A stretch of DNA of 64,000 bases from a virus, in the IMG/VR virus record IMGVR_UViG_3300013005_000031, positions 1-64,000 of that record, one strand, 5' to 3'. The position numbers and the translations under genes are program-made. Positions 31,801-59,200 of this stretch are shown piece by piece. Below the pieces are notes generated by a model. That model did not search any database. It had not been told where the DNA came from and saw only the letters and a list, made by a program, of their open reading frames with translations. Each line of letters starts with the position of its first letter. Position 1 is the first letter of the stretch.

Positions 31801-34800
31801 TAGGAAGCAATGGATTTCATATCTTCCTTGATATTTTTTATATCTTCAGGTGTAAGAGCTATTGTTTTACCTGAATCAGTTGTTAGCTGTTTAGTTTTTA
31901 CAGCTTTTTCATATAATAAATATAGATCTGTTAAATTTTTTAAAGGTGTAGAAGGTTCAATAACCTCATTGCCATAAAGTAAAGTTGGTGGTGTAACACC
32001 TGTTGTAGAATTCTTTATAGCTTGTTCCTTAATCTTATTATTGTAGTTACTAATAATTTCTGAAGCCTCATCTTGATCTTCTTGCCATCTTTGTTTTAAT
32101 GAGTTGTATTTGTCTGGATCATTTTGTTTTATAGAAAGATCTTCTTTTAATCTATCAACTAAGAAAACATCAAAAGCATCTGTTAGCTGATCCCGCAACT
32201 CTTCTGGAAGTTCTTCAAATGAATCATCAACAGAGTATGTCTTAACATCAGTTGGATTACCTCCAGCTTCTAAGAAATCTAATTTAGCTTCTTTTACTAA
32301 CTCTTCAAATTCTGCATTAATTTCTCTTAACTCTTGTTGGTACTTTGTCCATTCTTCTGTTTGTTCAACATCTACAAAATCAGATGGAGTATAGTTATTA
32401 ATAAAATCTTGTTGCTCTTTAATTAAATCAAGTAGTAAAGGTTTTATAGCCAAATAGAATCCTGCATTTTCAACAGCTGTATTGACATCAGTAACTTCTG
32501 CATCTATCTCTAAGATTTTATCACGCAATTCTGCAATGTCAGCATCATTTTTTGGATCATCAAGAATAATATTTGTAGCTTCTATAAGTTGCTCATTGGT
32601 CATCTCTTCTCTAAGGATAAGATCTGATGCAATTCTTTGTATATTATTTAAAGATTCTAACCTTTCTAAAATAGCTTCATACTCTGCCAATCTAGCTTGA
32701 TATACATTTAAATCTTCTCCAGAAGCTTCTGATGCTTCTTTAGCTAACTTTCTTAATTCAGCTTCTGTAGTATCATATTTACTTTTTAATGCTTCATCAA
32801 ACTTTTGTCTTGCCTGATCTATTTTTCTATCTCTGTCTTCTGTAATATCATCTATTATTCCTTTTAACTTTTCAGAATCTGTTTCAGGTTCTCCAGCTGG
32901 TTTTACAGCTTCTAGTTCTGCAGCCTTTTCAAATAATTTATAATAGTCATCATAAAGCAAACTGCCTTTATTTATAATAGAGTTATTTTTTACATCAATA
33001 AAATATTCTGGTTCATACATTGGATCTTCTGTCCACTTAGCAAACTCTTCTAAGTCAACAAAAATTCCTTGATCTGCAAGTTCATTTATTAATGCATTTC
33101 TTTCAATATTTGTAATCTCAGAATTTACAATGTCTTTAATAATATTTTTTCTATTGTAATACAAATTTCTCATCCACTGAAAATTTCTAAGTAGATGATC
33201 ATGAAAATCATTTGGATTAGATAAGATATTAATTAAAGGTACAATTTGGTTTTTCTCATGCTTAAGTATATGTGTATCAAGAAGATCATCAAAAAGACCA
33301 TCCATACCTTTGTCCATAGCATCTATCTGACGTTGTACCTCTACTTTTTCATCATTATCTTTAGATAATCCTAAAAGTAAATTTTTAAATGCGTCTTTGT
33401 ATTCTATAAACTCATTAGATTTACCTTGATCATACTGCTCTATTAACTTATCAAAGGTCTGTAAACTTAATTGTTCTTTTGTAAGACCAGGATTTGCTTT
33501 TAGAATAGCCTCAGATAAAGAAGATAATTTTGTCTTTGTAATAAACGCATTTAAAATTGCATCTTGCTTCTCTTTAAAATTAGAATACAATGCTAATTGC
33601 TCTTTCTTTTTATTTATTTCAGCTGCAGCAGTAGGTACATTAGTTTGTTCTAATGTCTCTATCTCTGTTTTCATCATTTCTATTTCTTTCTGTAGTCTTC
33701 CCGGATCAGTGAGTCCAGCAAATTCAGCAAAGTTAGAGTTCTTGATTGATGAAATAGATGCAAGTTTTTTATAGAGTTTATCTAATCTTCCTGCAGCATC
33801 ATCATAGGCTCCTTGTAAGAAAACAAAATTAAATAGTGATTGCATGTAAGCACTATTATAAATCTTAGCCATCTTATATTTATAACTATCTTTCTCATAG
33901 TCATCTAGATTAGCTAAAAATTTCATCTTTTCTTTTGCCTGATTATATCTGTATGATATCTTCTTAGCACTTTCTATAGATTCATTAAAGTTTTCTATTG
34001 CTTGTGCCCCTTGACCAGGTTGTAAATCCCATGCTTCTTCAATGTCTTGAGGTGTTGCTTGTTTATATTTCTCATAGTGATTTATAAACATATCAAAAGT
34101 TCCTCTTTGCAAAGAACTAATTACAGCAGTTTGAAATGCAGTAAACCTATCATCTTTAATTTCCTTAGTACTTTTCTCATCTGGATTAGAAACAGTATTG
34201 TATAGTAAAGACTGTGTAGCATAGTTTGTCATTCTTGGATCAAAGAATAAATCACTATTCTTCCACATGGTATTCATGTGCTCTACAACAGATTCTGCTT
34301 CAGCCTCTCTTTCTTCTATGTATGTTTTATACTTCTCACTTTTATTAAAGTAATCATTATAGCCCATTGTCATAAAGCTTTTAACTTTACTTGGTGCTTG
34401 AAGAATACTTCCCATTAAGAAACCAGAAAGAAATGTTTCTGCTCCTTGACCACTAAACTGTTTATTTATAGCATCACTTATCAAACCTGTTGCATACATA
34501 AAGTTCTTTGCAGCAGGATTTTTATAAGTGTCTACATAATAGTTTTGTGTAGCTTCTTGTAAAACATCTTGTAATGATTCTTGTACACCTTCTACTACAT
34601 TAGCTTTAAAGTAATTCAAACCTAGTTTACCATATGAAGCTGGTCTACCTAAAGATTTTATTGCATTTACTATACCAATCTTTTCTTTTGAAAATGTTGA
34701 TTTAGCAATATTTTTTCCAGGTTGGAATACCAATTGGTACTCTTTATTTAAATCTCCAAGGACTGTTCCAAATCCAAATTTAGGAGCACCCTTTATAAAA

Positions 34801-42200: not shown

Positions 42201-42631
42201 TACTTCTGTATATCATATTGTTTTGCAAGTTGTGCTGGTGTATATGCTTTATTTGTTCCTGCCTTACCAAACATATCTAGTATCTCAGGATCTTTTATCT
42301 TCATACCTCTAGTATCACTAAAGATAAAAGTGTCATCAGGAAGGTTTAATGGTACACCACCTGAATGGTGTCTTGGTCCTTTAATAATTTGATGCTCTGG
42401 CATCCCATCACCATTGATGTCTCCATATACTGTTTCTCCACCTTCTGCTTCTAGATTAGCCTCATCTCTTGGTACAGCTGTAATATATTTACTTTCCCTA
42501 AGCTTAGGCTTTCCTATATAGGCATTATAATCTGCACCACCCATTGCTGGTACATCATTAGCTAATGCTCCTTGAACTTGGTATCCAGTTCTTGCTTTAG
42601 GTACTTTTTTAATTCTTACTTTTCTTAACAT
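39272..42631 (-). CDS. Virion protein (1119 aa) with PKARTG tag, GG motifs and a Cys-rich loop
   Basis: The N-terminus is MLRKVRIKKVPKARTGYQVQ, a basic tag related to those of the next two upstream genes. At about residues 62-110 it has EAEGGETVYGDINGDG, then HHSGGVPLNLPDDTFIFSD, a module I recall from virion proteins of Bacteroidota phages. A Gln/Met-rich part follows, with a UBA-like helical unit (LQQGAEPQEVV...LGVPQEQAV). Two GGY segments occur (HGGYPHRR and MGGYDMPF). Near residues 770-835 a Cys-rich stretch (CQCDD, then CNPDLC, PCPC and CPPC) could bind metal or form disulfides. The C-terminal part is Ala/Gln/Asn-rich and helical, ending KKGGAINNPGYIYIN. It is likely a structural or packaged virion protein; its exact role is unknown. 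The start is 8 bases after the previous gene, with leader TTTACACT. Confidence 0.8.
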   Translation of the reverse strand: MLRKVRIKKVPKARTGYQVQGALANDVPAMGGADYNAYIGKPKLRESKYITAVPRDEANLEAEGGETVYGDINGDGMPEHQIIKGPRHHSGGVPLNLPDDTFIFSDTRGMKIKDPEILDMFGKAGTNKAYTPAQLAKQYDIQKYRKILEDPDSDKLDRESAELMIKKFVIKLGCLALAQEAKKGFPQGIPAVAKPCMQAKGITEEQIAPKKEIVDLKSQIEAKYQQQENADETMQDEYSAEQAQELNQGQPVAQPEEQMQQPAPEGMMMHGGYPHRRLRRAEEGMEQVPPEMMAEEQGGDQMMEIVQEIGAALQQGAEPQEVVMSLLQNQLPPEVIVQIFTQLGVPQEQAVGLIQQVIQQMQGGAEEPQGPPMAMYGMQMGGYDMPFYDEPEYEEEIPEADYGMPMGTGMSQNYQGRTKPLIKAGNGWTIKRSDYATDAEYERAINKAYKEKQDQKSTDEIKVIDASGQSKTFTGYKRSAPTDTGTLDMSQWGSTDIAKTAAAEYYLLEQSLKDPNSTVSQKLFDETINSLNEEKHFRGKTNPSVASRNWTQRGYTLPDKKQVIDAFLAHQKRNLLFQAKSIDGQLYKDTGRGFAPWEDYTVGGKNYKGVASLIAEGARVSDPRDPTGDTLIKSKADLQAAQTYMKNTYGGENVSDIAKGLNVPFEVDGKDRALQQATFHGYAQMSNNVKGKIYNDDEIYELRNFLGELQSGVADETSSLNLYPHLAGNAMISPIDDFYPVSKSTTGNTTMEHVAAAMLEEMQFDTPPPAVQCQCDDATKPNYGRLDPNTNKCNPDLCKNPPEQNPCPCIKVDEQGNQTEITQPRNADGTCPPCEEDMDVDVPGPPAEWWLQDTIKTTGAFGDLMGVKKYMPWAPAGELQKPRPAFLDPTRELAANAEQANIQTQGMAQFAGPQALSARSASVQGQAAKNAADVLSKYNNANVNIANQFELKGTDIANQESMLKQANAQRLYDQNTVANQQFDNAKLAMRNNLRNYYTNAITNRWQTDALNQMYPNYKVSPGVGGRMDFNPTEKTPNPSAGSNTNSWQKAYDECKKNNPGMSEALLRDCAKASATTTTSASTGANSKIGMGMYQGQKKKGGAINNPGYIYINSWFPFMD

Positions 42632-42639: not shown

Positions 42640-45600
42640 TTATAAATATTCTATTTCACCACCTCTTGCCAGATAATCTTGGATTTCTTCATCTGTCATG
42701 TATATTTCTTCATCATTATATGGATCTGCAAACCCACCATATTCCATATAACCACCATATTTAGATACTCCTGGATAGTTACCAAATGTAGAAAGGCTGT
42801 TTCTGTCATTGCCTTGTTGAGGTCCAAATGTACCCATATTTTGTGCCATATCTTGTTGTTGTCCTGCATATGGAGCATTAGTAATGGGTACTTGATTAAA
42901 TAAATTAGTTGCTTGATATGTAGTAGCAAGGCTTCTTGGATTATTCTGTAAGTTATTAATCATTCCAGAAGTAAAATTAACACCAGTATTAAAAGCATTA
43001 TTAAAAGCTTCTCCGTCCATTTGAGTTACTTTTCTATATTGAGTTGGATCATAATAGTTTGTATCATTAGGTTTCTCATCAGAGTTAACATAAAATTGTT
43101 CTGGTGATGCTGGTGGTGTAATTGCATCTGGTGCTTTACTTATTGGATTTCCATTTTCATCAAAACCCATTGTTGTACCTTCTGGGGCATCAATATTAAT
43201 ATCAGAAGTATTAAATGAACCAGACATCCAATCAGTATTTTTTGGACCACCAGTATTATATTTAGGTTGTAGGAATGCACCAAAAGGTAAGCTTCTTGAC
43301 AAAAACTGTTGCATACCATAAGAATTAAATCCACGGTCACCTTTACCAGCATCTCTTGCTAACAACATTGGTAGTACTCTATATCTATCTTCTTTTCCAA
43401 ACTGTCTTAAATTCTTTCTGCTATATGGATTATCACGTCTACTAATCTTTGGTTGATCAGTAAGGTAACTTCTAAATATAGGATTTATTGGAATCAATGT
43501 ATTTGCCAAACTAGATCTTCCTCTTACAACTTTAGGATTAAGTTTATATTGCATAATAGGTACACACTGATTATATGTCTTACTCCATATAGTTCCAGGA
43601 GGGCAGTTGTGGAAGGTTTCAACTATATCATCATTATTTGGATTTACTTCAAAAGTGTTTTGATCCAATGCTGGTGACATCTTATCTGCAATGTATTGTC
43701 CACCAGATCCTCCAGGAGGCATTGTTATACCACCACCTGCTTCTGGCAAACTGTATGGTTCATAAAAAGCTGGATCTTCATCACCACCATAGATAAATCT
43801 AGTAAGTGGATTTTCTACATCCATATTTACATAACCACCCATTTCACCAAACTGAGGTTGTTGGATCATTTGATTGTCTTGAGGTTGTTGCTGTTGGTTA
43901 TTACCCATGAAAATATTCATAAGTTGAGGATCACCTGATTTTTGAACAGCAGTATAAAGGTCTTCAGTTACAATTTTGTCTGCTTGAGTTTTTAGTTTAG
44001 TAACAAAATTATTTTTCTTTTCAGAAACTTTACCATTATCCATCCTGTTACCTTTTCCTAATTCTCCACCAGGTGCAAACTTAGACATTACATTTTTAAC
44101 AAACTGTTTTTTCTGAGCTCCTCCTCTTTTAAAATTATCTGGTAATGGTGTTGCCCATCCTTTATCATGGATTGTATCTCCATTTTGAATAAGCATACTA
44201 TCTTTATCAAAACTAGATCTTGTAACTCCAAAATTAGGGTCATTACCAACTCTACCAGCTCCTTGGAAATTTATATTACTTCCAGGTACCAACTGTTCCA
44301 TTCCCCTATCATAAATAAAATCTTTATCTGGTTCTTGTAAAAACTGGTTGTATCCTAAATATCCTAAACCACCAAGAATTCCAGCTGTTTTTAAAAAGCC
44401 TAATCCTGTTTTGTAATTACGATCTTTTAATAAACTATAGTCTGCATACTGAGCACCAAAAGGTTGATCTCCAAAAGTCATTCCACCAGGAGCTTGTGGT
44501 CCTATTTCTCTTTGCCTTCCAAGATATTGTGTTTTAACATTTGAAGCATTAGGATAAAACTTACTTCTTTCAGCAAACCTTGGATATGTAAATGGAAGAG
44601 ACATTGGAGAAAAGACCATTGGTTTTCCTATCATGTTCCAAGCAGTATTCCAACCAGAAACTGGTTCTTTTTTTAAAGGACTTTCAGAAATTATTTGAGG
44701 ATACTTACTTAAATCAAGTCCCGGGAATTTAGAAGTAAAAGGAAATCTATATGGAGAGTTATACCAATTTAACTGGTTACCCATATAATAGTTTTTATCA
44801 ACTATCTCTAAAGGTAACTTTGTTTTTGGGTCTAGTATCTCTTTTGTTTTAGGATCTATAATAATTTCATCCTTTAACTTTATAGAACTTTTACCATAAC
44901 CTTTTAATCTTGTTGGAACTTCTGAAAGAATTTCTACTTTAAATAGTCCATTTTCATCTTTAGTAAATTTAAGTTTACCATTGTTTTGTTTATGGATACT
45001 TAAAAAATCTAACTCAGGAGCAATTGACTCTGGCATTCCCACACCACCAAGAAGAGCACCTAATGATTGTATATCTATTTCTGTAGGTTTCTTCTTTTTA
45101 GAAAGCATATTAAATTCCTCTGTGCTCTTTAATAAAAAGTCTGCAAGTGCTGGATCTAAATTAAAACCTAAACCTGTACTGTATGTATTATCTGCATTTT
45201 TTTGTAATACTGATGGCTCATACTTATCATTTTCTATAAGTGCATTTATATCAGTAATAATTTTTGTAGTGGTAGTAGAAGGTGCTACTTGCTCTCTCCA
45301 TTTCTCTCTCCAGTTTTGTGGTCTTACTGTATTTAAAACGGTTCCTAAGTTTTCTACTCTTGTACCAAAAAACCCTCTATCAGATAATGGATTTCTTTTA
45401 GCAAAGAAGTTTTGATAGTTCTGCCATGTTGATGGAGTAACTGCAGATTCTTGTGGTGTTACAGTTCTCTGAGGTCCTACACTTTCTACAGGAGCTACTG
45501 TAGGTTCTACAGGTTCAACTACAGTTTCTCTTGTTTCAGGTTTTGCTGGAGTTTTAGCTTTTCTTCCACGCTTACCTTTTCCAGGACCTGGACCACCACC

Positions 45601-46410
45601 AGCAAATTTGTTTAAACCACCATACTTATTAGCTGGTAATAAATCTTGTGGTACACTACCTTCATCAGCAACTGGTCTATAGCTACCTAAGTAATAACTA
45701 AGGTCTGGTGTTTGTGGAAAATTTTGTGCACCTGGAGTAAACTTAATTAGTCTACTTAAATCAAATGGTATTTCTTCTTCAGCAGATAGTTTTCCCGGAT
45801 TACTATATTGATCTATAACAGCATCTTGTGGTGAATCAGCATCTGCAAAATAATTTGTATAATCATCTTCATATTCTCCACCATCATCATAATAACCACC
45901 ATATTGAAATGCTCCTTCTTGTGCATATTGTTCTGAGCCAGAATCTAAATGTTGCATACCATCATACCCACTTGGCATATCTGATTCAGCTAATGCTATA
46001 TCTTCATCATCATTAGTATTTGTTGGAGCTGGTTTAGGTGTTGGTTGTGGAGCTGGACCAGCAGCTTGAGGATTGGTTCCTTGTGCAGTATCTTCCTCTT
46101 CCTCTTCTTCTAAATATGCTGGATCTTTATAACCTTTTTGAGCAAGCACAGTCATTACTCTATTGATCATTGCAAATGCCATCTTTTGCTCTATACCATA
46201 TTTGGTAACTAAAGTTTCAAAAATAGTATTTGGATCTGCGCCATCTCTTAAACTTGCATATGTATCATTCATGATAACTTTTAATCTTTCTTGCACTTGC
46301 AATCCTTGACTGGCTTTTGGTAAAGCTTTGTTTAAGAAATTAGCTGTCTTGTTGTAGTACCCTGGTTTTTCACCGGGACCAGCCTTTCTTATTCTAACAG
46401 ATTTTTTCAT
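42640..46410 (-). CDS. Virion protein (1256 aa) with PKASQG tag, UBA-like unit, GG repeats and C-terminal tag
   Basis: The N-terminus MKKSVRIRKAGPGEKPGYY is followed by LPKASQGLQVQ (30-40), which parallels the PKARTGYQVQ of the neighbouring 1119-residue protein. Residues 41-93 form a helical unit (LRDGADPNTIFETL...) like that in the neighbour. A Glu run and a Pro/Thr linker come next. Gly-Gly units recur: KYGGLNKFAGGGPG with a basic KGKRGRK patch, KRGGAQKK...KFAPGGELGKG, MGGYVNMD and KYGGYMEYGGF. A CPPGTIW...QCVP mini-module lies near residues 935-951. The C-terminus EEIYMTDEEIQDYLARGGEI is a variant of the C-terminal tag seen in the two upstream proteins. No enzyme site is visible. I infer a structural or tagged cargo protein. 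Confidence 0.78.
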   Translation of the reverse strand: MKKSVRIRKAGPGEKPGYYNKTANFLNKALPKASQGLQVQERLKVIMNDTYASLRDGADPNTIFETLVTKYGIEQKMAFAMINRVMTVLAQKGYKDPAYLEEEEEEDTAQGTNPQAAGPAPQPTPKPAPTNTNDDEDIALAESDMPSGYDGMQHLDSGSEQYAQEGAFQYGGYYDDGGEYEDDYTNYFADADSPQDAVIDQYSNPGKLSAEEEIPFDLSRLIKFTPGAQNFPQTPDLSYYLGSYRPVADEGSVPQDLLPANKYGGLNKFAGGGPGPGKGKRGRKAKTPAKPETRETVVEPVEPTVAPVESVGPQRTVTPQESAVTPSTWQNYQNFFAKRNPLSDRGFFGTRVENLGTVLNTVRPQNWREKWREQVAPSTTTTKIITDINALIENDKYEPSVLQKNADNTYSTGLGFNLDPALADFLLKSTEEFNMLSKKKKPTEIDIQSLGALLGGVGMPESIAPELDFLSIHKQNNGKLKFTKDENGLFKVEILSEVPTRLKGYGKSSIKLKDEIIIDPKTKEILDPKTKLPLEIVDKNYYMGNQLNWYNSPYRFPFTSKFPGLDLSKYPQIISESPLKKEPVSGWNTAWNMIGKPMVFSPMSLPFTYPRFAERSKFYPNASNVKTQYLGRQREIGPQAPGGMTFGDQPFGAQYADYSLLKDRNYKTGLGFLKTAGILGGLGYLGYNQFLQEPDKDFIYDRGMEQLVPGSNINFQGAGRVGNDPNFGVTRSSFDKDSMLIQNGDTIHDKGWATPLPDNFKRGGAQKKQFVKNVMSKFAPGGELGKGNRMDNGKVSEKKNNFVTKLKTQADKIVTEDLYTAVQKSGDPQLMNIFMGNNQQQQPQDNQMIQQPQFGEMGGYVNMDVENPLTRFIYGGDEDPAFYEPYSLPEAGGGITMPPGGSGGQYIADKMSPALDQNTFEVNPNNDDIVETFHNCPPGTIWSKTYNQCVPIMQYKLNPKVVRGRSSLANTLIPINPIFRSYLTDQPKISRRDNPYSRKNLRQFGKEDRYRVLPMLLARDAGKGDRGFNSYGMQQFLSRSLPFGAFLQPKYNTGGPKNTDWMSGSFNTSDINIDAPEGTTMGFDENGNPISKAPDAITPPASPEQFYVNSDEKPNDTNYYDPTQYRKVTQMDGEAFNNAFNTGVNFTSGMINNLQNNPRSLATTYQATNLFNQVPITNAPYAGQQQDMAQNMGTFGPQQGNDRNSLSTFGNYPGVSKYGGYMEYGGFADPYNDEEIYMTDEEIQDYLARGGEIEYL

Positions 46411-46454
46411 ATAGCATGTTATATATTAAATATACTAAATTTTAATTTATTCAT

Positions 46455-46471
46455 TAAACTTATAAAGTTTA
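46455..46471 (-). repeat. Inverted repeat spanning a stop codon (copy 1, perfect)
   Basis: TAAACTT-ATA-AAGTTTA is a perfect 7-bp inverted repeat with a 3-base centre. It includes the TAA stop of the 1506-residue gene (46469-46471) and lies 45 bases before the ATG of the next gene at 46410. On the minus strand it contains ACTTTATAAGTTTA. Its twin at 39258-39274 occupies the same kind of position. The rest of the 58-base gap is A/T-only or nearly so. Confidence 0.65.
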
Positions 46472-49400
46472 CTCATCTTCTATAATGTATCCACCTTTGA
46501 TATACTTATCTATTTCTTTTTGAGTAAGTTTTGTAGACACATATCCACCTTCTTTATAAGCTTCTATTATACCTTCTCCTTTACTGTAAGATTCTGGTAC
46601 TTCTAATCTTAGCCACTCATTTCCAAATTGATCTGTTTCAGGAACAGCACCAGATTTACCAAATAATTTAATGTAATGTTTTTTATAATCATTATAAATA
46701 CCAGATGCTTTATCATTACCTTGTATTCGTGTAGATAATTCTGCAGTAGGTATATAAAGATATTTCTTCCCTTGATCAGCAGCATATTGTAACATCTCTT
46801 GTATTAATCTTTTTTCAGTAGATTTTTTATTGGTCATTAAAACTCTTTTTTGTTGTAAGTTTCTTTTAATGACATCAGCTGCTTCACCAGCAAATTGTTC
46901 CATATGAGATCCTGGTTTAAATTGAACATTTGGAGAAAAGTAATTACCAGTTGAATGTTGTTCAAATTCTTGCAAGTATCCTTCTAAATCAAATTCTTCA
47001 CTACCATCTTTTCTATATCTTCTTTTCATTTTAGAAAACTGCTCAGCAGCATCTGATTGAATTCCTGATGCATAGAGTGCATCAGGTTGATACGCGTTTT
47101 CATAAACATGAACATGTGCTAATGTATCATTTGCATTACCATGTTCTTTTGATCCATAACCAAATTGATCTACATTACTAAATTGAATAGTTCTTGGATT
47201 TGTAAGTTGAAAATCTGCAAAAGTATCTTTGTTAGCTAAATAAGCTTCTTGTTTTTTATTGATAATAGCTAAATTATTTTCAAAGCTTTGTTCAAGTTCT
47301 TTAAGATATTCTGCATCTACATATTTTGAAACACCAGAATTAGTTGTAATAGTAGATTCTCCTTTTTCAAGAGCAGATTTTACTTTTTCAATTTTTTCAT
47401 TTGAGCTGTAAATTAAATTACGTTTTAAAAGATCTAATCCAGTAGCATATTTATCAATTGCATGTACTACATTAGCATTCATTCTATTATCCCCTTGTTG
47501 GTACTTTGACCATAATTTTCTAAAAGGATCCGGATATATAAAATTTAAACCATAAGTAGAATTAGGAGCTTCCCTGTAATCACCTATTTCTGGATCAAAT
47601 ATATCTTTACCAAATAAACTACCTTCTTCAAAAGCAAAAGGAACTTCTGTTTTATTTAATGCTGGAATAGCTTGTTGTACACTTCCTAATAATTCTTTAG
47701 CATCCATGTGTAAAACATTGGAATCTAATCCTTGCCACAAATCTGGATTATTAAATAATGATTCTATAACTTCATCTCCCCCTGCTGTTTTACGTAAAAT
47801 ACTGAGAGCTTGTTCAAAATTTATTTTACCTGTCTTAGGATTAATAGCTTTGTATAAAGGACTTTGAGGATTAGCTGTTACATTTAAATTTAATCCTGTA
47901 GGGGGAGTAACAGTTTCATAAATAAATGCATCTATATTAGTTGGTTCACCAGTCATAGTTTTATATTCTTCTGGAAACCCCATTGACAGTTGTTGTCCTT
48001 GTGTAGGTTTTCCTAATACTTCTGTGCTTTGAGTATTTGGAAAAACAAGTTGAGGTTCTACAGTTGGTGCTGCTTCTCTAATTATAGGATTAGGTTCAAA
48101 AATTAATGGTAATTCAGGAGCTTTAATAATATTTTCTTTTTCTCTTTCTTTTTCTTTACCAAATCTTTTTTCTTTAACACCTTTACCAAGACTTGCTTTA
48201 GGTAATTCTCCTCCAGACTTCAATCCTTTATTATAATACATTCTATCAACAACTGTAGGATCCATTTTAAATGGCTTTAAGTAGTATCTTGCATCTCTAA
48301 GATTCTTATAACCATGCTTGCCTATCATTAGACCCATTCCAAGAGGAAGTATATTTTCATTTACTTGTTTTTCGTTTCCTGTTTGAAGTCCTTCATAAAT
48401 ATTTTTTCCTGCTTCAATTGCAAAACCAGGATTATCAGGATTTAAGTTAAATGCATCTACTCCAAATTTAGTTAATAGTGCATTACCCGGTGTTGCAAGA
48501 TTCCTTGCTATTTGATACTGTGGTAATTTAGAAACAATAGGTGCTGCTTTAGATAACTTTGGTAAAAGTCTAGCTCCCGACAATGCCTGTAAAGTTTTTG
48601 AATAAGGTGCTGCAGCAAAGAATGCATTTAAAGCAACATCTCCAGTATTAATTTCTGGATTATCGTTTACATAATTTTGATAAGCAGTGCTTCCTGTTTG
48701 AGCAGCCCAGTGAAATGGACTAAATAAATTTATAGCCTGATCAATAGGTTTTTGGAATTCCATAGATTTATTATAAAACAGTTGTCTTCCACCTGGACCA
48801 AATGCTTGTGTCCAAGCATCTGCTTCACTTTCTGTCATTTGATCTGTCATTGTACCAACCACAGGATCTTGCCATTGTCCAGAAGTCCACTTTTCTAAAG
48901 TATTCTTTGGTTGGTTTACAAAACTACCTAATTGATCCAATCCAAAATAAACAGGATTCATATTATTCTGAAATTTATTCTGAAGGAATTTAGCATCTTC
49001 TAGTTCTTTTTTAGCTTTATCTCTATATTCATTTATAGCTTGATTTTTATATGTTTCTCCAAATAAAGTTTGAGCATAAGATGGTTGTGCGCGATACTGT
49101 TGTAAAAAGTTTTGTGCTTCAGGAGAGCCTAGAAAATTTTCAAAGGTTCCATATTGCTCTACTAAATTTGAACCCCTATACTCATCAGTATTCTGAGCAT
49201 TAACTTCTGTAGGTAAAATATTATTTAAAAAAGCATTCTGCAAATAAGTTTTTGCTTCTTGATCTATTGTTTGTTTTTTCTGATTAAGAAATTTATCTGG
49301 ATCTTTATATGATGTTATATCTCTATTACCACTTAATTTTCCAAGTGATATATCTGTTCCCTCAACTTTAAATTTTAATTTATTTACTTTATTATTAAAC

Positions 49401-50989
49401 TCTTCTAGAATTTTAGCTTTTTGTTTTTGGACAGACTCTGGGTCATTAGAAACATCATAGTATGCTTTTATATTAGCTGGGTTTACATCTATCCCCATAT
49501 CTATTTCTGTTAAAGCATTCATCTGTTTAACAGCATCATTATATGCTTCTGCATACTCAGGGGTTACTTTATCTGAGATAGGATTAATTGGATCTAAACT
49601 ACCTGACCAATTTGATCCAGATACTTTATCAAATAATAGATTATTTAATCCTAAGTAATTAGCTTGTGTATTATTTATATTATCTTCCTTTTCTACATTG
49701 TTGAAATAGGAATTAATAGTTGTTTCATAGTTTTTAAGTATGCTTTCTTCTGTATCTTGTTTTTTTCTATTTGGAAATCTAGTAGTAAAGATACTTATGT
49801 CACTATTATTAATAGTTGCTCTACCATAATCATCAGTTTTAAATAAACTTTTGTCTACTGGTTTCCAATCAAAGTTCCAAGTAAATTGATTTTTATAATC
49901 ATTCTTAAAATTAGAATTATCATTAAGAACTGAAAAATTATCATTGTTCCATTGGTTTCTGCTAGTGTATTGAAAGATATTTCCTTTTGTATCTTTTTTA
50001 TACATTACCCCATTGTCATCAGTAAAATATACATCTGCATTTAATTGCTTATCAATAAGCTCACTTACATCTTTAAAGTTTTGATCTACACCTTTTTTAG
50101 TACCCCAACCTTCTTTTTCCAATTCTTTTCTGGCATCTTCTGCAGACATTCCAGATTTTATTTTTTTTAGAAGTTCCTTTGATACATTCTTGTTATAATC
50201 ATTATCAGCCATTGCAATAAAACTTCCAAACTCATTTTGAATTTGTTTAGAATCTAAACCATGATACTTTTTAAATTCATTAGGTCTAACACCTTGATCA
50301 TATATTAGACCTAATATAACAGGTCTTGGATAAAAATTAACTTTCCCATCTGATCCTTTTTCAAAATAATATTCCTCAAACTGATCAATTATTGGTTGAA
50401 TCTGTTGATTAAACACATCTTCAGAATATGAAAAAATTGGTTCAAGTTTTTTATGTTTATTTCCTTTCTTTAATGCATCTTTAGTATATTGCTCCCATTT
50501 TACATTAAAATTTTGTTGGTTTTGCCCAGATTTTTCTTCTTGTTTTAATTGTTCTATTTCTTGTATTTTTTGAAATATAGCTACACGTTCATCAGCATTA
50601 GCCTCATCTACTCTAATTTTTAAAAGACGAACTGTAAACTCATCTATACACTCTCCCTTATATGGCACTTTTCCAGGAGGACAATCTTCAGGCTGTAATG
50701 TTTCATATAACCCATCTTCTGTTTCTAGTTGAGGAGCATATACCTTGTTATATAAACGATCAATGTTTTCATTATATGTTGGTTCTTGTTGATATACAGG
50801 ATCTACATTATATAAGTCAGGTTGATTAACTAATTGGTTATTATTAGTTAAGTTAGCCACTGATGCTGGATTATTGTTTATTGGTCCAACAGGAGAATCC
50901 CAATTAGATATTGGAACTTGAGTTTTTAATTTTCTCTTAGACCCTCCATTTCTTAATTTAGGAACTTTAATAATTTTATACTTTGCCAT
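46469..50989 (-). CDS. Giant virion protein (1506 aa) with QSD-type polyvalent module and C-terminal tag
   Basis: The N-terminus MAKYKIIKVPKLRNGGSKRK is a basic tag of the same kind as in the next two genes. CPPGKVPYKGEC follows near residues 102-113. The first 700 residues are polar and Asn/Lys-rich. A short hydrophobic patch lies near residues 770-850. At 922-933 SGGELPKASLGKG repeats the PKAxxG motif. Residues ~1260-1430 contain HVHVYENAYQ, GIQSDAAEQ and, further on, RLIQEMLQYAADQGKKYLYI followed by PTAELSTRIQG. This order (QSD, then a helix, then P-T-x-E) resembles a module I know from large polyvalent phage proteins, which are injected with DNA; its chemistry is unknown to me. The C-terminus is KLTQKEIDKYIKGGYIIEDE. 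The start overlaps the previous stop by one base (TAATG). Confidence 0.78.
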   Translation of the reverse strand: MAKYKIIKVPKLRNGGSKRKLKTQVPISNWDSPVGPINNNPASVANLTNNNQLVNQPDLYNVDPVYQQEPTYNENIDRLYNKVYAPQLETEDGLYETLQPEDCPPGKVPYKGECIDEFTVRLLKIRVDEANADERVAIFQKIQEIEQLKQEEKSGQNQQNFNVKWEQYTKDALKKGNKHKKLEPIFSYSEDVFNQQIQPIIDQFEEYYFEKGSDGKVNFYPRPVILGLIYDQGVRPNEFKKYHGLDSKQIQNEFGSFIAMADNDYNKNVSKELLKKIKSGMSAEDARKELEKEGWGTKKGVDQNFKDVSELIDKQLNADVYFTDDNGVMYKKDTKGNIFQYTSRNQWNNDNFSVLNDNSNFKNDYKNQFTWNFDWKPVDKSLFKTDDYGRATINNSDISIFTTRFPNRKKQDTEESILKNYETTINSYFNNVEKEDNINNTQANYLGLNNLLFDKVSGSNWSGSLDPINPISDKVTPEYAEAYNDAVKQMNALTEIDMGIDVNPANIKAYYDVSNDPESVQKQKAKILEEFNNKVNKLKFKVEGTDISLGKLSGNRDITSYKDPDKFLNQKKQTIDQEAKTYLQNAFLNNILPTEVNAQNTDEYRGSNLVEQYGTFENFLGSPEAQNFLQQYRAQPSYAQTLFGETYKNQAINEYRDKAKKELEDAKFLQNKFQNNMNPVYFGLDQLGSFVNQPKNTLEKWTSGQWQDPVVGTMTDQMTESEADAWTQAFGPGGRQLFYNKSMEFQKPIDQAINLFSPFHWAAQTGSTAYQNYVNDNPEINTGDVALNAFFAAAPYSKTLQALSGARLLPKLSKAAPIVSKLPQYQIARNLATPGNALLTKFGVDAFNLNPDNPGFAIEAGKNIYEGLQTGNEKQVNENILPLGMGLMIGKHGYKNLRDARYYLKPFKMDPTVVDRMYYNKGLKSGGELPKASLGKGVKEKRFGKEKEREKENIIKAPELPLIFEPNPIIREAAPTVEPQLVFPNTQSTEVLGKPTQGQQLSMGFPEEYKTMTGEPTNIDAFIYETVTPPTGLNLNVTANPQSPLYKAINPKTGKINFEQALSILRKTAGGDEVIESLFNNPDLWQGLDSNVLHMDAKELLGSVQQAIPALNKTEVPFAFEEGSLFGKDIFDPEIGDYREAPNSTYGLNFIYPDPFRKLWSKYQQGDNRMNANVVHAIDKYATGLDLLKRNLIYSSNEKIEKVKSALEKGESTITTNSGVSKYVDAEYLKELEQSFENNLAIINKKQEAYLANKDTFADFQLTNPRTIQFSNVDQFGYGSKEHGNANDTLAHVHVYENAYQPDALYASGIQSDAAEQFSKMKRRYRKDGSEEFDLEGYLQEFEQHSTGNYFSPNVQFKPGSHMEQFAGEAADVIKRNLQQKRVLMTNKKSTEKRLIQEMLQYAADQGKKYLYIPTAELSTRIQGNDKASGIYNDYKKHYIKLFGKSGAVPETDQFGNEWLRLEVPESYSKGEGIIEAYKEGGYVSTKLTQKEIDKYIKGGYIIEDE

Positions 50990-53900
50990 TACTTTACTTC
51001 TTCAAGTTTATAACCTAATCTTTCTAATTCTTCTTTAGAGAGATCATCTAATTCTATTTCATCCCCCACTTCATATTCAAATGCTCCACCGTATTGTTTA
51101 AAGATAATAGGATTTTCTTGTGTTAAAACCATAGGCTTACCAAATGCATCCATAGCATCTACCATCCAAGGACTAAGATTTTTTTCATAACTATATTTGT
51201 CCATATATGCTTTACGATTAAATCCCCAAAGATCACGTGCTACTGTAGAAAATTTATCTTTTGATAATCTTTTCAAAAAGTTCATGTGACCTTGTATATC
51301 ATCATATGGATTAATAGGATTTCTTCTCAAGTGAAAACCAAATGGTAACTCTCCTTCTTTTGTTGTATTAGCATTAACTTGAAATGGAATAGTCTCTTGA
51401 CCATATTGATCAAATAAATAATTTAAATTATCTTTAATAAGCCCTTCAAATTCAGATGGTGAATATGGTGATGCATCAACAAGTTTAAGTTTTCCAGTGG
51501 TAGGGTCATAAAATGTTTTAAATTCATCACTAGTAAGTAAATTATCATTTTTATATCCTTGCATTAGATCTACTAAAGGACCAGATGTTTTACTTTCATC
51601 TGGTATGTTTGCTAATAAACTTTTTATTGAAAGATCTTCCCCTCCTTTTATTTCAGAAAATAACTCATAAGCTTTTAATGGACCATACCAATCTATTGCT
51701 TGTTGTAATCCAGCATCACTTTCAAAGTCATAAAATGTTGGCTCAAAACCTGTTTCATCACCAAAGAAATAATTTCTATTTAAATCTCTCTTACCTTCAC
51801 CATAAAGTTGTCTAATATGTTCAGGAACTGTTTGTCCATGCATCACACCTGTACCAAAATAACTTGCAGGATATTTTTCTGAGCCTTTTATTGCATTTAT
51901 TATATCTGTATCATATCTTCCTGCGCGGTGGCTTTGTGATGCAATATCATAACCTATTTCTTTTGCTAAAAGACTAAAAGGATTATAATTAGATCTTGTA
52001 AATTTCTTTATGTTCTTTTCCCATCCAGTTGGTAGTTTATCAATTAACCCTGGTACTTTTTCAGCTATTTTTATAAGGCCGCTACCAGATTTTGGTGGCC
52101 ATCCACCCTCTTTTCTTGTTAATGTAGGTACAGAAATATCTTCTACTATATATCCACCTTTAACATATTTGTCTATATCTTTTTTAGATAATGTTAATTC
52201 AATTGATCCACCATCTTTAAAAGACATATTATCAAATAAATGCTTACCTCTTTTATCTGTATAGACAGCAGGCTGTTTTAATTTTTGACATCTACATTTT
52301 GGACATGGTCTTTCATAACCTTCTGGACAATCTCCTCTACCTAGAATTGTACCATTAGGATTTACTTGAAGTTCTGGTGGGTTAACTTCAAAATTGTTTT
52401 CTGTAGGTGTGTCTTCCTGTGGAGTATCACCTGTGTATTCTTCATCATAGTCTTGATCATATGCATAATCATTGTATGTTTTTTTTCTTTTAATAGCAGG
52501 TAGATTTAGATCCTTTAATTTATCTATAGCACCTTCAATTGGAACTGTATATCTTACATTACCATATGGTTTAAGTGTTATAGGAATATTATCTCCCATA
52601 GTGTCTTTACCACCATAATCTAATCTAAGTCCTCCGGTAAAAGAAGCTACCCCAGGAAAGTCTTTAAATGGTTTTATTTGAACTGTACCTTCTGGACTTA
52701 GGAAAGATATATCATATCTAGGCTCATCAGTTTTATTAATAACACCTTGAGCAGTTTTTGTTCCTTGCTCTATATCATTTGCATATGCATTTAATATATT
52801 TTGTGTTTGGATGTCATTATATTCAGGCCGTTGTCTAAGTGCAAAATTTAATACATTTAACTTAGGTATAAAAGCCATATCTCCCTGCCTTGTTAAACCT
52901 TTATCAAAATATCTTTGAGGTGATATTTTTGCATTGTTTTTTCTTCTACCAAAAACACCCATCAGACCAAGATCTGCTGTACCATAAAATCCAGGTTCAG
53001 GTGCATACCCAACATTTAAAGATCCGTATCCTGTAAAAGGTCCACTAGAAGAATCTCCAAATGCATTACCAAAAACATCCCAACCTACATTTGCTGTAAG
53101 TGGAATTCCTTTTTTATACAAAGGTTTTGCTCCTGCTAGATTTTTTGCAGCATTATATTGATTTATAATAGTTTGATTTAATTCAGAAACAGGAGTCCCT
53201 GTATAATTTGATACATCTTGTAAATATTGTTGATACTTTGGATTATTTTCACCTCCCAAAGCAGGATCATAGTAACTACTAAACAATCCTTCTTGAGGTA
53301 CAAAATTTAAAGTCCGGTTTGTTAAACTTTGTGCATCAGTATTGTAAGGTCTACCTAAAGTAAAAGATAAAGGATTGGCAGATAGATCTGCTTTTTTAAA
53401 TAGATTAGGTGTAGTATATGTTAAACTATAATTTGGATTTCTATTAAAGTCTGAAGCTTGACCATAAGCAGATCTATAGTCAAATGGTGTAAATGTTAAA
53501 GATCTATCTTTTCCAGTACCTGGTAAACCAAATGAAGCTTTTGGTAAATCTTTTTTCTTTGCTCCACCATTTTTACTATATTGAATAGTATCATCAGTTT
53601 CATTATCATTTTTAGAAATGTTGTTTAACATCCATTTTATATCTTTATCAGAATAAGTTTTTCTAAGTTCATTTAATGGCTTAGAATATAATAACTTTTT
53701 ATCTAACTGTTTAAATTGTCTTCCTGTTATTTTCTTATTAAAAGGATCATAAATATTTTGTTCATCCGCACCAAATTGTATTTCTCTCAATCTTGATCTA
53801 ACTTCACTTCCTTTATTACTTAATAAATAATTATTCCAATCATCAAATTTATTTTGTTCATATATATCTCTTGGTATTTCTTCTTCACCCATGTATTCAT

Positions 53901-56214
53901 CTTCTAACTTACTTTGTGAGTTTTTATACCAAGCCATTTCATCTTTACCATATTGACTATTTTTCCAATTTAATGGAACTCTATATTGCATTGCTAATTG
54001 ATCATTATATGGAATAAGTCTATCTAATTCACCAGCTGGTCTATCAGAAGAATGACTAATCTCATGAACTAACATTTGTTTATTTCCAGGAAAAGATTGA
54101 TGTATTGAAACATTACCTGTATTACTATCAGATATTCCCCATGGGGAAAAGCCATATAAATCCTCAATCAATTTTACATTAGGATTTGTTTTATCAAAAT
54201 CAATATCTAGTGCTGGGATAGTTTGTATATTTTTTTTTCTTAAATCTTTTATTTCTTTAAAAAGTTTTTGAGCATCTGAATCTGTTCTAGTTGATAATTT
54301 TGATGATTTCATAAGCATTTTATCATGCATTGGAGAATCATGCCATTTATTTATCCAGGATAATGCTTTAGAAAAATCTGAACCTAATGGACTAACACTT
54401 ACTTCTGGTTCAATTTGCATGTTTGTTGCAACATCTGGATTTTCTAATAAGTATTGTGGATCAAGAGGTGCAAGTTTTCTATCAACTGGAACACAAGTTT
54501 CTCCATTCCAATAGTGATATGGTGGACATTCCTCTTGTAAATTTTCTCCACCATCAAAAAATTTAGATAATCCTCCATACTTAAATGCTCTACCTTCTGC
54601 TTGTTTTTTCTTTGATTGCTCATACTGTTCAAGCCAAGTATCTAAATTTTTATCATACTCCTCATATTCTTTTTTATACTTCTGTTGATTCATTAAATCT
54701 CTTAAAGAAGCTGCTCCTCTAAATTCCATTTCAGAGCCAGTTGCATTGCCATAGTCTAATTCTCCAGGAACAAAGTTACCTTCTTCATCTTCATAACCTT
54801 CAAAATAATTTTTATCATAGCCTGTAGCTTTCTGTACTATTCTAGGAATTAACCTTGTTTTGTTTCTTTTACCTAGAGCAACATGTCCTTTACTATCTAA
54901 TACACCTTTATCAAATAAAGCAGCAATTTTATTTTGTGGCAACTTAACATCTAGACTTAATCTATCAGCTGTGTATGGATCTAATGTATATTGTGGAGCT
55001 TCAATAGAATCTGGAAGAGAATAGTCATGTACCTGTAATTCTCCTAGATCTTTATTTTCTAATAAAGGAGGATCAATGATTGGTAATTCTATTGGTTCTA
55101 CTTTTATATCCTCATAGATTGGATTTATAGTTTTAACATACTCACATTTTTTTCCAGTAACAGGAACTGTTTCTTCATCTGTCCCAACTAATTTTTTTCC
55201 AGAAGGTGCTTTCTTCGGTACATTATTTATAATAGTTGTTTTTGGTACACAAGGTTTAGGAGGGTTTTGAGATATTACAGGTTTTATAGGCTTTTTGTAT
55301 TTAAATACTCTCCATGGTTGATTTCCTTGATAATGTGTAAATACTTTAACAGGACTAATATTTTGATAAGGATTTCCTGGCAATGCCCATGATCCAAATC
55401 CCTGATTCCTACCTTGAAATTTACTTATTGCTGCAGATGGTATTTTATATTGTGGATTTTTTAAAACATTCATGAATTGATTATATGAATTATATAATGC
55501 TAAACTATCATTATATGCTTGCATACGTTCTTTATGAGAAAGACCATTTTGTGCTTTGATCAACTCTCCACCATCTGCATAATACTTTGCATTAGGATCA
55601 AAGATTTTATTTTTTCTTGATTTAGGTTTAGAGAATAATGGATTTTGTGCAAAGAACTTATTGGTAGCTTCAAGGCTTCTAGAGTATGCTTTTGAGTTTT
55701 TCTTATTAGGAATTTTAGGTCTCTTAGCAGAACCTCCCTTTTTAAAATTATCTGGACTTTCTAAGTCTTTAATATTATGATTATAATAGTTAGATGTTAG
55801 TTCTTCTCCAGGATTTATATTTCTTTTAGCTAACATCAATATATGATCTCCATTATCTACTTCATATATATTTGGACTTTCACTATGATTGTAATAACCT
55901 CCTAGTTCTACAGATGGAAATGGTGCTTGATATTGCTCCCCATTTTTTGTAAAACTTTTTCTAATATGAGAAACACCTATGACATCATCTTTAGCAATTG
56001 GCTCTTGACTAAATATACCTTTACCTTGTATTTTAGATGGGCCAACACTTAATGATTTAAATACAGGAGCATTGACACCATTCTCAGCACTTATTACATT
56101 ATCACTTTTTTTACTACCAGTTGTGTTGTTTGTATAAGCTTTGTTATACTTAGTAGCTGGTTTAGATTTATTTAAATTTCTAATTGCGTCTATTATTACT
56201 TTCTTATTGTACAT
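50989..56214 (-). CDS. Giant virion protein (1741 aa): SET domain, HExxH peptidase site, beta-rich part, internal tag
   Basis: Residues ~52-145 form a SET-type lysine methyltransferase domain: IQGKGIFS (62-69), NHSESPN (109-115) and GEELTSNYY (136-144) are its three landmark segments, with Glu and Ser in place of the usual Cys in NHSC. GG-flanked basic segments and ELIKAQNGL follow. A CPPYHYWNGETCVPV mini-module lies near 562-576. H717-E718 and H721 (HEISH) mark a metallopeptidase-like domain. LPKASFG starts at 890. About 900-1270 is Gly/aromatic beta-rich, possibly barrel-like. CPEGYERPCPKCRC is near 1295. At 1339-1359 lies an internal copy of the C-terminal tag (LSKKDIDKYVKGGYIVED), followed by a separate ~380-residue domain that ends in a variant tag. 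It looks like a fusion of several cargo proteins. Its start overlaps the muzzle gene stop by one base. Confidence 0.83.
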   Translation of the reverse strand: MYNKKVIIDAIRNLNKSKPATKYNKAYTNNTTGSKKSDNVISAENGVNAPVFKSLSVGPSKIQGKGIFSQEPIAKDDVIGVSHIRKSFTKNGEQYQAPFPSVELGGYYNHSESPNIYEVDNGDHILMLAKRNINPGEELTSNYYNHNIKDLESPDNFKKGGSAKRPKIPNKKNSKAYSRSLEATNKFFAQNPLFSKPKSRKNKIFDPNAKYYADGGELIKAQNGLSHKERMQAYNDSLALYNSYNQFMNVLKNPQYKIPSAAISKFQGRNQGFGSWALPGNPYQNISPVKVFTHYQGNQPWRVFKYKKPIKPVISQNPPKPCVPKTTIINNVPKKAPSGKKLVGTDEETVPVTGKKCEYVKTINPIYEDIKVEPIELPIIDPPLLENKDLGELQVHDYSLPDSIEAPQYTLDPYTADRLSLDVKLPQNKIAALFDKGVLDSKGHVALGKRNKTRLIPRIVQKATGYDKNYFEGYEDEEGNFVPGELDYGNATGSEMEFRGAASLRDLMNQQKYKKEYEEYDKNLDTWLEQYEQSKKKQAEGRAFKYGGLSKFFDGGENLQEECPPYHYWNGETCVPVDRKLAPLDPQYLLENPDVATNMQIEPEVSVSPLGSDFSKALSWINKWHDSPMHDKMLMKSSKLSTRTDSDAQKLFKEIKDLRKKNIQTIPALDIDFDKTNPNVKLIEDLYGFSPWGISDSNTGNVSIHQSFPGNKQMLVHEISHSSDRPAGELDRLIPYNDQLAMQYRVPLNWKNSQYGKDEMAWYKNSQSKLEDEYMGEEEIPRDIYEQNKFDDWNNYLLSNKGSEVRSRLREIQFGADEQNIYDPFNKKITGRQFKQLDKKLLYSKPLNELRKTYSDKDIKWMLNNISKNDNETDDTIQYSKNGGAKKKDLPKASFGLPGTGKDRSLTFTPFDYRSAYGQASDFNRNPNYSLTYTTPNLFKKADLSANPLSFTLGRPYNTDAQSLTNRTLNFVPQEGLFSSYYDPALGGENNPKYQQYLQDVSNYTGTPVSELNQTIINQYNAAKNLAGAKPLYKKGIPLTANVGWDVFGNAFGDSSSGPFTGYGSLNVGYAPEPGFYGTADLGLMGVFGRRKNNAKISPQRYFDKGLTRQGDMAFIPKLNVLNFALRQRPEYNDIQTQNILNAYANDIEQGTKTAQGVINKTDEPRYDISFLSPEGTVQIKPFKDFPGVASFTGGLRLDYGGKDTMGDNIPITLKPYGNVRYTVPIEGAIDKLKDLNLPAIKRKKTYNDYAYDQDYDEEYTGDTPQEDTPTENNFEVNPPELQVNPNGTILGRGDCPEGYERPCPKCRCQKLKQPAVYTDKRGKHLFDNMSFKDGGSIELTLSKKDIDKYVKGGYIVEDISVPTLTRKEGGWPPKSGSGLIKIAEKVPGLIDKLPTGWEKNIKKFTRSNYNPFSLLAKEIGYDIASQSHRAGRYDTDIINAIKGSEKYPASYFGTGVMHGQTVPEHIRQLYGEGKRDLNRNYFFGDETGFEPTFYDFESDAGLQQAIDWYGPLKAYELFSEIKGGEDLSIKSLLANIPDESKTSGPLVDLMQGYKNDNLLTSDEFKTFYDPTTGKLKLVDASPYSPSEFEGLIKDNLNYLFDQYGQETIPFQVNANTTKEGELPFGFHLRRNPINPYDDIQGHMNFLKRLSKDKFSTVARDLWGFNRKAYMDKYSYEKNLSPWMVDAMDAFGKPMVLTQENPIIFKQYGGAFEYEVGDEIELDDLSKEELERLGYKLEEVK

Positions 56215-59200
56215 TACCTAAATGAATTTAAAGTTTTGTAATTGCTGAATTTCAATATCATGTTTATGTCATTACATTGATTTCTTTTTAAATTTAAGAA
56301 ATTTAAGTAATGTCTGAATTTTTTTCTTTGTAATTCAGATTTATTATAATCCATGTTATTTGGATTTAATATTCTAGTGTATCCATCTGCTGCTGTTACC
56401 CAAGTATTTTCTGAAGCATAGTTACCTTGAAGTATAGTAGTTCCTGGAATTAAAGGTCCAGTAGGAGGATAGTTAGAATTAATTGGAAACTCATCTCTAT
56501 CTCTTGTTATATCCCAAAACTGATTGAATCTATATTTCTGTTCTTCTTTAGCAAATAGAATATCATAAGATGATAAGTTAGCACCTAACTTAGGATACTG
56601 TAATGATAGTATAACATCATTCTTTGGATATAGATTTAGATTTAAATATCCGGAAACTTGTTCTGTATTATAAACAACAGCAGTATCAAAATTATAATCT
56701 AACACATGATGCTGGTCTATACAACTTCCTGAGTTTCTTCTATAACATTCCAATGCATACTCTACTGATCTTGTAGTCATTACTGCCTGACCTGTTACAA
56801 TTGGGAATTCAATCTCCCAACCAAACTGTTGACCATAGAAGTTACAGAAGTCATCACAGATATAATTATGTTTCCAGAAACCATTTTCCTTAGTACTTAA
56901 AAATATATCTTTTGTTGGTAATAATAAATCTGGATGCCAGTCATGGAAACTGATCCAGAATTTAGATTTAGGATCAAAGCTTAATGTCCAAGATGCATTT
57001 TCAAATAAGAATGGGTCACCTAATAAAAATCTAGAGTTTTGATTATTATCTAAAATAAAAGCATCACCTGTACCATCAGGATTTATTGGAATATATTCTA
57101 CTCTTCCTTTATATAGATCTTTTAATTTATAATCTTTCTTAGCAAAGTATAAAATGTTACTAGAGCTGTCATATGTTGATTGACATCCAATTCCTGCAAC
57201 AGGATTATCCTGCCAAGGATAGCTAGGGAAATCTTCTGTTAATTGATATGGCATATATAAAATAAACCACCACTTTAATCCTGCCTGAGATATTTCTTCT
57301 AGTCCTTGACCAAATGTAAATACTCGTCCTTGGTTTTGAGACATATAGTATATACCCAATGGAGTTGATATAACAGATAGTCTGTTTTGTGATGAACCAT
57401 ATTCATATGCCTTATCTGCATTAGATACAGATTGTTGTGGCTGAGAAAATAATCCACCATCCCCAATAGTAATCTTAGTATTTAAATCTGTCTCAAGTGT
57501 ATCTACACCTTGATACATTAAAGGACTTTCATTTTTAAATGTAATGAATATACCTGATTTGTTAATTGACTTAACTCCAGAGATTTGCCCTTTAAATTCT
57601 TTATAGTTATTTATAAGGTATATTGACCAGCTATCTTTTATTGCTTCATCTTGCTGAGGCAATGAATAAATAATCCTATCCGGTAAGTATGTATAACATA
57701 ACTTAGATACTGCAGGATTATAGTATCTTGATTGTATGCTACCTGCTGAAAAATACTGGTTGTAAAGTTTTGACACACTCAATGAGTAATCATATATGTA
57801 CTCACTAAGTTTACCCATTATTGCTGGGTTCATGTCAAACATAGCAATATAATCTGTGTATCTATATGGATCATAATGCTTACCACCTTCTGCTATACTT
57901 TGTTTTCTAAAATCTACAAGTACATCTGATTCTACAAAGAAATCTCTGATGCCAGAATTTGCTAAATAGAAGTATGCATTTCTTACAGAAAATAAACCTT
58001 CATACTTACCCACACCTTGTGTAGTGTCTGTTGCATAATCATAATATCTATTTGAATTAACATAATAATCCATATTATAAAATGCAGTTGGCACAGGTCC
58101 TGTACCAGGAACAGAAGGTCCACTGATGTTTATTAATTCTGATAGATATCCAACATCATAATTTATACTGTTTACTTTAAATCTTGCATTTGGAATCATA
58201 GAATATAAATAGTAGTTATATTCAAAACCATCTGGCTGATCATATAACCAATTGTAAAAGAACATCATGTTGTTCTTCTCAGTGTATCTATTTATATATG
58301 TATCTCCCCCAAATACAATTGGTGTTCTTTGTATAGTTTTAAACTGATATGTTATTTGGTCTATTGGACATGTCCATGGAATAGGTTGTAAGTTATAATC
58401 AGATAATTTTTGTTCACAAGAAGTTACAGCAATTTGATATTCACTACCTAGTTGACCATATTGATTTCTAACTCTGTATTTTAATGCTCCATAATGACTT
58501 GCAATAGGTAAACTAAAAGATGTATCAAAGTTTTCAAAAGTTGGTAGGGTAGAGTTAATAAATGCTGAATCAGAAGAATTTTGTACAACAGTTCCTAATG
58601 TAACTAATGATTTATCTCTTATACCTGTAGTAATTAAATTAGGGCCAATGCTTACTCCATCAGGATATGCTAAATTGTAATAAGGTCCAGATTTAGTACG
58701 AACAGTTATTATATCTGATCTTTTTAAATTATTAATTACATAACTAAAATACTGACCAAACTGATTTTGATACTTAGGAACATTTTGCAAATTATCTCTA
58801 ACGTAAAAATTATCTTCAATTGAAAATCTTTTTAACTCAGACTGACCAATTTTTATCATGTTACCATAATACCCATGTGCAACAGACTGAAGTGCATATT
58901 GTCTATATGGTGTTATAGCATAAAATATTCTTAGTGTTGCTTCCGCACCTTCTGAAAAATAATATGAAATTTGATTTAATCCTCCAATTGCTCTAGTAAT
59001 TGGATCAAGATAAGCATAGCTTGGCATTTCTACTAAACCTTGTTGAACAATTGGTGTTAATCCTGTAGCTCCACTTGTAGCATTTAGTGTGTTTATAAAT
59101 AAATTTTGAGCTTGAGCATAAGATGTATCAGGGTAACCATTTGGACCAATAGGACCTGGATTAATCATAATTAATGCATCAAGAAAAGCATTACCACTTG

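Follow-up and report, generated by a model that had tools for sequence, protein, structure and literature searches.

A peptide tag of about 25 residues is conserved in the large proteins encoded just after the muzzle gene in a lineage of crassviruses; it is confined to this gene block, stands at the ends of modules, is constrained at the protein level, and belongs to cassettes that are reused. It was studied in a 64,000-base stretch (the window) of the 84,012-base IMG/VR virus record IMGVR_UViG_3300013005_000031. On gene content the window is assigned to a Crassvirales genome, because it carries a muzzle gene (PF25731) and a gene for a protein of 2413 amino acids (aa) homologous to gp47 of PhiCrAss001. 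Five genes, A (1741 aa), B (1506 aa), C (1256 aa), D (1119 aa), and E (1052 aa), lie between these two anchors, all on the minus strand. The order muzzle–A–B–C–D–E–RNA-polymerase proteins is repeated in the relatives, whose loci were collected around the muzzle gene, with A and B at times fused, split, or shortened. A preliminary description of the window had reported one shared ending on the products of A, B, and C, together with an internal copy in A.

The tag, its copies and its distribution

To search the window, tag profiles were made from relatives only, without the window sequence, and run against all its 540 six-frame open reading frames (ORFs); 20 shuffled window proteomes served as the null and gave a top score of 5.4–7.5 bits with the A/B- and C-type profiles. 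The copies at the C-termini of B and C and the internal copy in A were recovered well above this range (Table 1), as the preliminary description had proposed. Its fourth copy, at the C-terminus of A, did not stand: the profile of its own sub-type scored it within the shuffled range (maximum 7.9 bits), and statistically it is not the same motif in the window. This end represents a separate type, 'LGDEVDEATMxxLxKLGYTFEKI', which relatives keep as the C-terminal ending of that gene and which is only weakly linked to the other tags. The two main sub-types, A/B ('LTxKEIDxYVKGGYIVED') and C ('YMTxEEIxxFLAxGGxVEYL'), are related in profile–profile comparison (hhalign 88%, P=3e-6) and do not form one tight motif. 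The C-type end was present in 39 of 42 distinct relatives of gene C and was followed by 0–2 residues and the stop codon in nearly all cases, while 29 of 36 distinct gene A proteins carried internal tags and 16 a C-terminal one. The GG pair noted shortly before each copy also proved general, as it was found at most 25 residues upstream in 116 of 139 tags versus 20% for positions drawn at random from these proteins (related contigs counted separately).

A profile of 20 tags matched every one of the 13 whole records searched from the lineage; all matches with E<0.01 lay in genes just after the muzzle, and no convincing tag was seen outside the post-muzzle genes of these records. IMG/VR was then scanned by DNA patterns, blind to genes, over 2.9 million viral contigs. 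The C-type pattern occurred in 34 stretches, each of them at the end of a C gene. The A/B-type pattern gave 94 stretches, and 77 of the 78 examined loci had a recognisable muzzle, A–E, or RNA-polymerase gene; the 78th was a short piece of a contig already known to carry the post-muzzle block. The A/B pattern had no match in 84,980 prokaryote genomes, where 0.5–3 were expected by chance, depending on composition. The random scatter among non-virion proteins that would be expected of a meaningless motif was thus not seen, and the profile searches against shuffles, the block-confined IMG/VR matches, and the prokaryote null together reject chance similarity as the source of the copies. The concentration at the C-termini of virion genes, which the preliminary description had put up for testing, held as regards the post-muzzle block with its likely virion proteins; as regards position it did not, given the many internal tags of gene A proteins. 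Beyond the lineage, a single weak tag copy (8e-5) was found in phage Lbo-JY46, where it lies in the second post-muzzle gene. In this phage (L119, 26065–28089) the muzzle, an ending like the tag, and, in the next gene, an LPKAQ start occur together; its record names a cyanobacterial host (Leptolyngbya), whereas crassviruses are described from Bacteroidota. A tblastn search of annotated phages with the consensus tags returned nothing for the A/B type and, for the C type, weak and unrelated matches only, no Pfam family reached its cut-off on the tag, no PHROGs family fell below E=0.01, and the tag is not described in the literature searched (open papers only).

The constraint acts on the protein, because codon use is ordinary and tags from one genome resemble each other no more closely than tags from different genomes do. 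Codon entropy at the conserved tag residues was mostly near expectation, with synonymous choice as free as in the rest of the block, and the likeness was 0.599 within versus 0.602 between genomes (p=0.61). A DNA-level element is rejected by this codon variation and by the absence of within-genome homogenisation. Internal tags are as well conserved as terminal ones and thus are not mere relics of fusion. In AlphaFold2 models built from 39 sequences, the C-terminal 100 residues of C were unstructured apart from a helix at 84–92, with a predicted local distance difference test (pLDDT) score of 84/80 for the final 20 residues; the end of B showed the same pattern with lower confidence for the last 20 residues (77/71) and values below 50 in the preceding stretch. 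These single-chain models, of low confidence overall, cover the ends of C and B and suggest that the tag forms a short helix carried on a flexible tail after a disordered Gly-Gly linker. A fold search with the end model of gene C found no match in a viral library, and the tag profiles gave only short, chance-like matches to solved structures.

LPKAQ boxes, exchangeable modules and neighbouring genes

A second element, GGxLPKAQxG, stands at the N-termini of B and D, lies within or close to the N-terminal end of C, and recurs at internal joints of all three proteins A, B, and C; nine of its ten matches in two long records (G001, G003) fell within A–D. At several joints a tag is followed by a box without gap, for example, in GGYIVEDLPKAQLG and GGYIIEDISIPSLPKAQLG. 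Homology searches among A and B proteins detected modules in altered places and revealed highly mosaic genes. The clearest cassette is the segment aa 443–853 of L049 gene A, from an LPEAQ box to the terminal tag, which equals aa 9–363 of L136 gene B, from an LPKAQ box to a tag; beyond that tag L136 gene B continues with another box and module. Similarly, the 1620-aa gene A of L041 joins the opening unit of L014 gene A, which ends at its tag, to a portion of gene B, a separate gene in L014. The window module at aa 1385–1709 of A has a homologue inside L030 gene B (39%), between two LPKAQ boxes, and further homologues in gene A of the other relatives named in Table 1. In 55 proteins, module borders lay near tags in 36 cases versus 18 for random positions and near boxes in 23 versus 8, and 0 of 1000 random draws reached either value. 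As shared tags could themselves draw block ends, the test was repeated using only ends whose partner lacked the element; the enrichment near tags fell from 2.8-fold to 2-fold, still above all random draws, and that near boxes was about 2.8-fold. These comparisons support the view that the block genes arose as units with a tag at their end were joined and exchanged, with modules moving between genes as [LPKAQ box–module–tag] cassettes. The earlier proposal that the 1741-aa gene arose by joining two tagged proteins therefore holds for the joining of tag-ended units, and its single fusion gives way to what, on these alignments, is a shuffled mosaic in A and B.

The modules carry diverse domains. 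Pfam searches with 35 distinct A proteins detected SET in 11 and phage lysozyme in six, and single cases of tail lysozyme, SLT transglycosylase, amidases, VanY carboxypeptidase, and a metallopeptidase family. The position of SET varies within the mosaic A proteins of relatives. A zinc-metallopeptidase-like signature, HEISH, lies at aa 717–721 of gene A (window 54052–54066), in a module common to L022, L142, and L012. In other lineages, a tail lysozyme is encoded after the muzzle in phi17:2, where it is the first gene, and in csAssE-Sib; in phi4:1, the four genes that follow the muzzle (gp041–gp038), which are positional equivalents, are annotated from tandem mass spectrometry (MS/MS) of virions. 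Because the wall-hydrolase modules, the phi17:2 and csAssE-Sib lysozymes, and the phi4:1 virion MS/MS fit such a role, we infer that A–C are virion cargo or ejection proteins, which would be carried inside the particle and breach the cell wall when ejected.

Table 1. Tags, boxes, domains and genes located in the window (all on the minus strand)
Feature	Position	Strand	Score or remark
Muzzle gene (PF25731), anchor of the block	56214..61697	-	E=5.8e-30
Gene A (1741 aa), first after muzzle; mosaic protein with SET domain	50989..56214	-	
SET domain (PF00856), gene A, aa 66-143	55786..56019	-	E=1.9e-8
LPKAQ-type box, gene A, aa 890-896 (LPKASFG)	53527..53547	-	
A/B-type internal tag, gene A, aa 1334-1360	52135..52215	-	40.3 bits, 4.8e-12; 8.9e-13 in whole-record search
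Exchangeable module, gene A, aa 1385-1709, between internal tag and LGD end	51088..52062	-	homologues in L030, L199, L008, L127
LGD-type end, gene A, aa 1717-1741, weak tag relative	50992..51066	-	6.5 bits; Pfam DUF7210 E=0.11
Gene B (1506 aa), second after muzzle; A/B-type tag at end	46469..50989	-	
LPKAQ-type box, gene B, aa 929-935 (LPKASLG)	48185..48205	-	
A/B-type tag, gene B C-terminus, aa 1481-1506	46472..46549	-	39.7 bits, 7.3e-12
Gene C (1256 aa), third after muzzle; C-type tag at end	42640..46410	-	
LPKAQ-type box near gene C N-terminus, aa 30-36 (LPKASQG)	46303..46323	-	
C-type tag, gene C C-terminus, aa 1233-1256 (ends ..DEEIYMTDEEIQDYLARGGEIEYL)	42643..42714	-	38.9 bits, 1.8e-11
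LPKAQ-type box, N-terminus of 1119-aa gene D, aa 10-16 (VPKARTG)	42584..42604	-	
2413-aa protein, homologue of PhiCrAss001 gp47 (RNA-polymerase-associated cargo), downstream anchor, no tag	28821..36062	-	family profile vs gp47 E=2.4e-24

Several features were observed alongside these. The C-terminal end of gene D is conserved separately as 'GGF(I/V)Y....PF' in relatives (window 39275–39320) and differs from the tag. Gene B is seemingly split in G003 at 85245–85421 (in L056), with the tag on its own 58-aa ORF, for which an insertion, an intron, or a sequence error is possible. The gp47-type protein has a Cys within its last 1–3 residues in every locus seen and also in PhiCrAss001, phi17:2, Lbo-JY46, csAssE-Sib, and Fpv1; the protein after it starts with MAC/MKITC and has a Cys among its last few residues wherever the end is covered, and the third RNA-polymerase protein has one in its first six residues. 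In the window these sites of the virion RNA-polymerase proteins lie at 28824–28826 (the gp47-type protein), 28811–28813, 18383–18385, and 18366–18368. The terminal cysteines of consecutive chains could allow end-to-end pairing.

Possible roles of the tag

We incline, tentatively and at not quite an even chance, to the reading that the tag is a short linear docking motif, an address by which each module is loaded through a common partner. Such a motif would consist, in this order, of the disordered Gly-Gly linker, a helix with the pattern [L/M]-[T/S]-x-x-E-[I/L]-x-x-[Y/F], and an end with the pattern G-[G/Y]-x-[I/V]-E, and it would close many modules of three consecutive proteins between the muzzle and the virion RNA-polymerase genes. 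It would bind one common phage partner, which may be the portal, the inner wall of the tail, or one of the neighbouring proteins D and E, and through this binding each module, joined or separate, would be loaded and later ejected. A broader version, according to which any domain between an LPKAQ box and an EIxxY tag would be recognised, loaded, and injected, we hold to be doubtful. The preliminary description had argued that the tag is kept because it has a job; a protein-level role conserved in a block of likely virion proteins bears this out, and the job may be loading, docking, or cleavage.

Several results weigh against a docking address. No tag match was found in PhiCrAss001, crAss002, DAC15, phi14:2, phi17:2, csAssE-Sib, or Fpv1, and crassviruses can therefore load cargo without it. 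The RNA-polymerase proteins and gene E have no tag either; since the former lack it, the tag is not needed for all cargo and is not the only way into the particle. A universal cargo tag, and with it the earlier idea of a general cargo label, is rejected, because no tag occurs in the RNA-polymerase proteins (virion cargo in PhiCrAss001) or in the two preceding genes. The hydrophobic moment of the tag helix was no higher than after column permutation. Finally, profiles of C, D, and E gave no sequence match to gp45 or gp46 of PhiCrAss001, and the placement of the block at gp45/gp46 rests on gene order.

The strongest rival is polyprotein processing, in which the tag and the LPKAQ box would flank a phage-protease site, fused and separate genes would yield the same mature modules, and each of these would start near LPKAQ and end in a tag. 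Cleavage would explain the cassette ends well: tags run directly into boxes at several joints, B, C, and D start box-like and B and C end in a tag, fused and split gene versions both occur in relatives, and in T4-type heads short N-terminal propeptides are cut by the prohead protease (PMC5694885). However, no candidate protease was identified in this analysis, the string 'cleav' is absent from the PhiCrAss001 structure paper (PMC10172136), many internal tags have no box behind them, and the C-type tag, so close to the stop codon in nearly all cases, leaves nothing to cut. We regard processing as rather improbable. Alternatively, the tags may be functionless scars of fusion or recombination, swap joints kept by descent or as recombination homology, with which the closeness of module borders to tags and the highly mosaic A and B genes agree. 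Against this, the mostly expected variation of synonymous codons means that DNA identity is not kept, the equal likeness within and between genomes indicates no homogenisation, the protein sequence is strongly conserved between diverged phages, and C-type tags end a gene showing no internal tag. Because the tag is conserved, a functionless scar is unlikely, distinctly more so than processing.

It has also to be considered that the helix-GG-strand pattern resembles the RNA-polymerase-binding domain of SutA, so that ejected proteins might dock on the beta protrusion of the host polymerase early in infection. In fact, Pfam SutA-RBD (PF20661) is matched at E<=0.1 by 24 of 29 C-type tags, among them the window copy, whose match (8.6e-5) covers profile positions 11–26, and the SutA interface residues M71, F74, L75, G78, G79, V81, and I84 (PMC9300723) correspond by hand alignment to I, Y, L, G, G, I, and L of the window tag. 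Nevertheless, all matches stay under the Pfam cut-off (22.3 bits for the window copy versus a gathering score of 29.3), A/B-type tags fit more poorly, and the profile misses SutA itself in the PDB at E<=10, yet matches 'SMTLEGIQAFLAQGGTIE' in allophanate hydrolase. As that enzyme is unrelated, such a pattern can arise by convergence, and binding to the host polymerase appears very improbable.

Relation to known systems and significance

Returning to the docking address, short cargo addresses are already known in T4 heads and in microcompartments, and it is the crassviral tag itself that is new in the literature searched. The T4 capsid-targeting sequence is a short terminal address that sends internal proteins into the head (PMC5694885); it is N-terminal, 10–20 residues long, and cleaved, whereas the crassviral tag is C-terminal or internal, and the N-terminal LPKAQ box is the nearer analogue of the T4 sequence. 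The encapsulation peptides of microcompartments (PduP, CcmN) share with the modelled ends of C and B a short terminal helix on a disordered linker. In contrast to them, the tag has two sub-types, occurs also internally, and has an extended GGxIE end, and the compartment would be the phage virion; a sequence relation is not claimed. An amphipathic helix as proof of an encapsulation peptide is unsupported by the hydrophobic moment. Two Pfam families, SutA-RBD and DUF7210 (PF23843), contain a helix-Gly-strand mini-motif like the tag, with partial coverage and in another protein context; the 1741-aa protein reaches 12.6 bits with DUF7210, below its gathering score of 27 bits. In PhiCrAss001, which unlike the window lineage has no tag, gp45 (C1) and gp46 (C2) lie between muzzle gp44 and gp47, as the tagged block lies between the muzzle and the 2413-aa gp47 homologue. 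Only pieces of gp45 are resolved in the PhiCrAss001 structure, and other cargo has no resolved location (PMC10172136).

For annotation, giant mosaic genes of this kind are best split at tags and boxes before homology search. A conserved, portable tag limited to a few genes is a defined peptide that can be tested for a binding partner; should it also act on foreign modules, selected proteins could be loaded into such phages by means of a short address. The tag bears on the question of how large crassvirus cargo is chosen and loaded. If modules were indeed plugged in between box and tag for delivery, these phages would have a variable arsenal of wall hydrolases, SET proteins, and other enzymes, comparable to the variable effector ends of polymorphic toxins.

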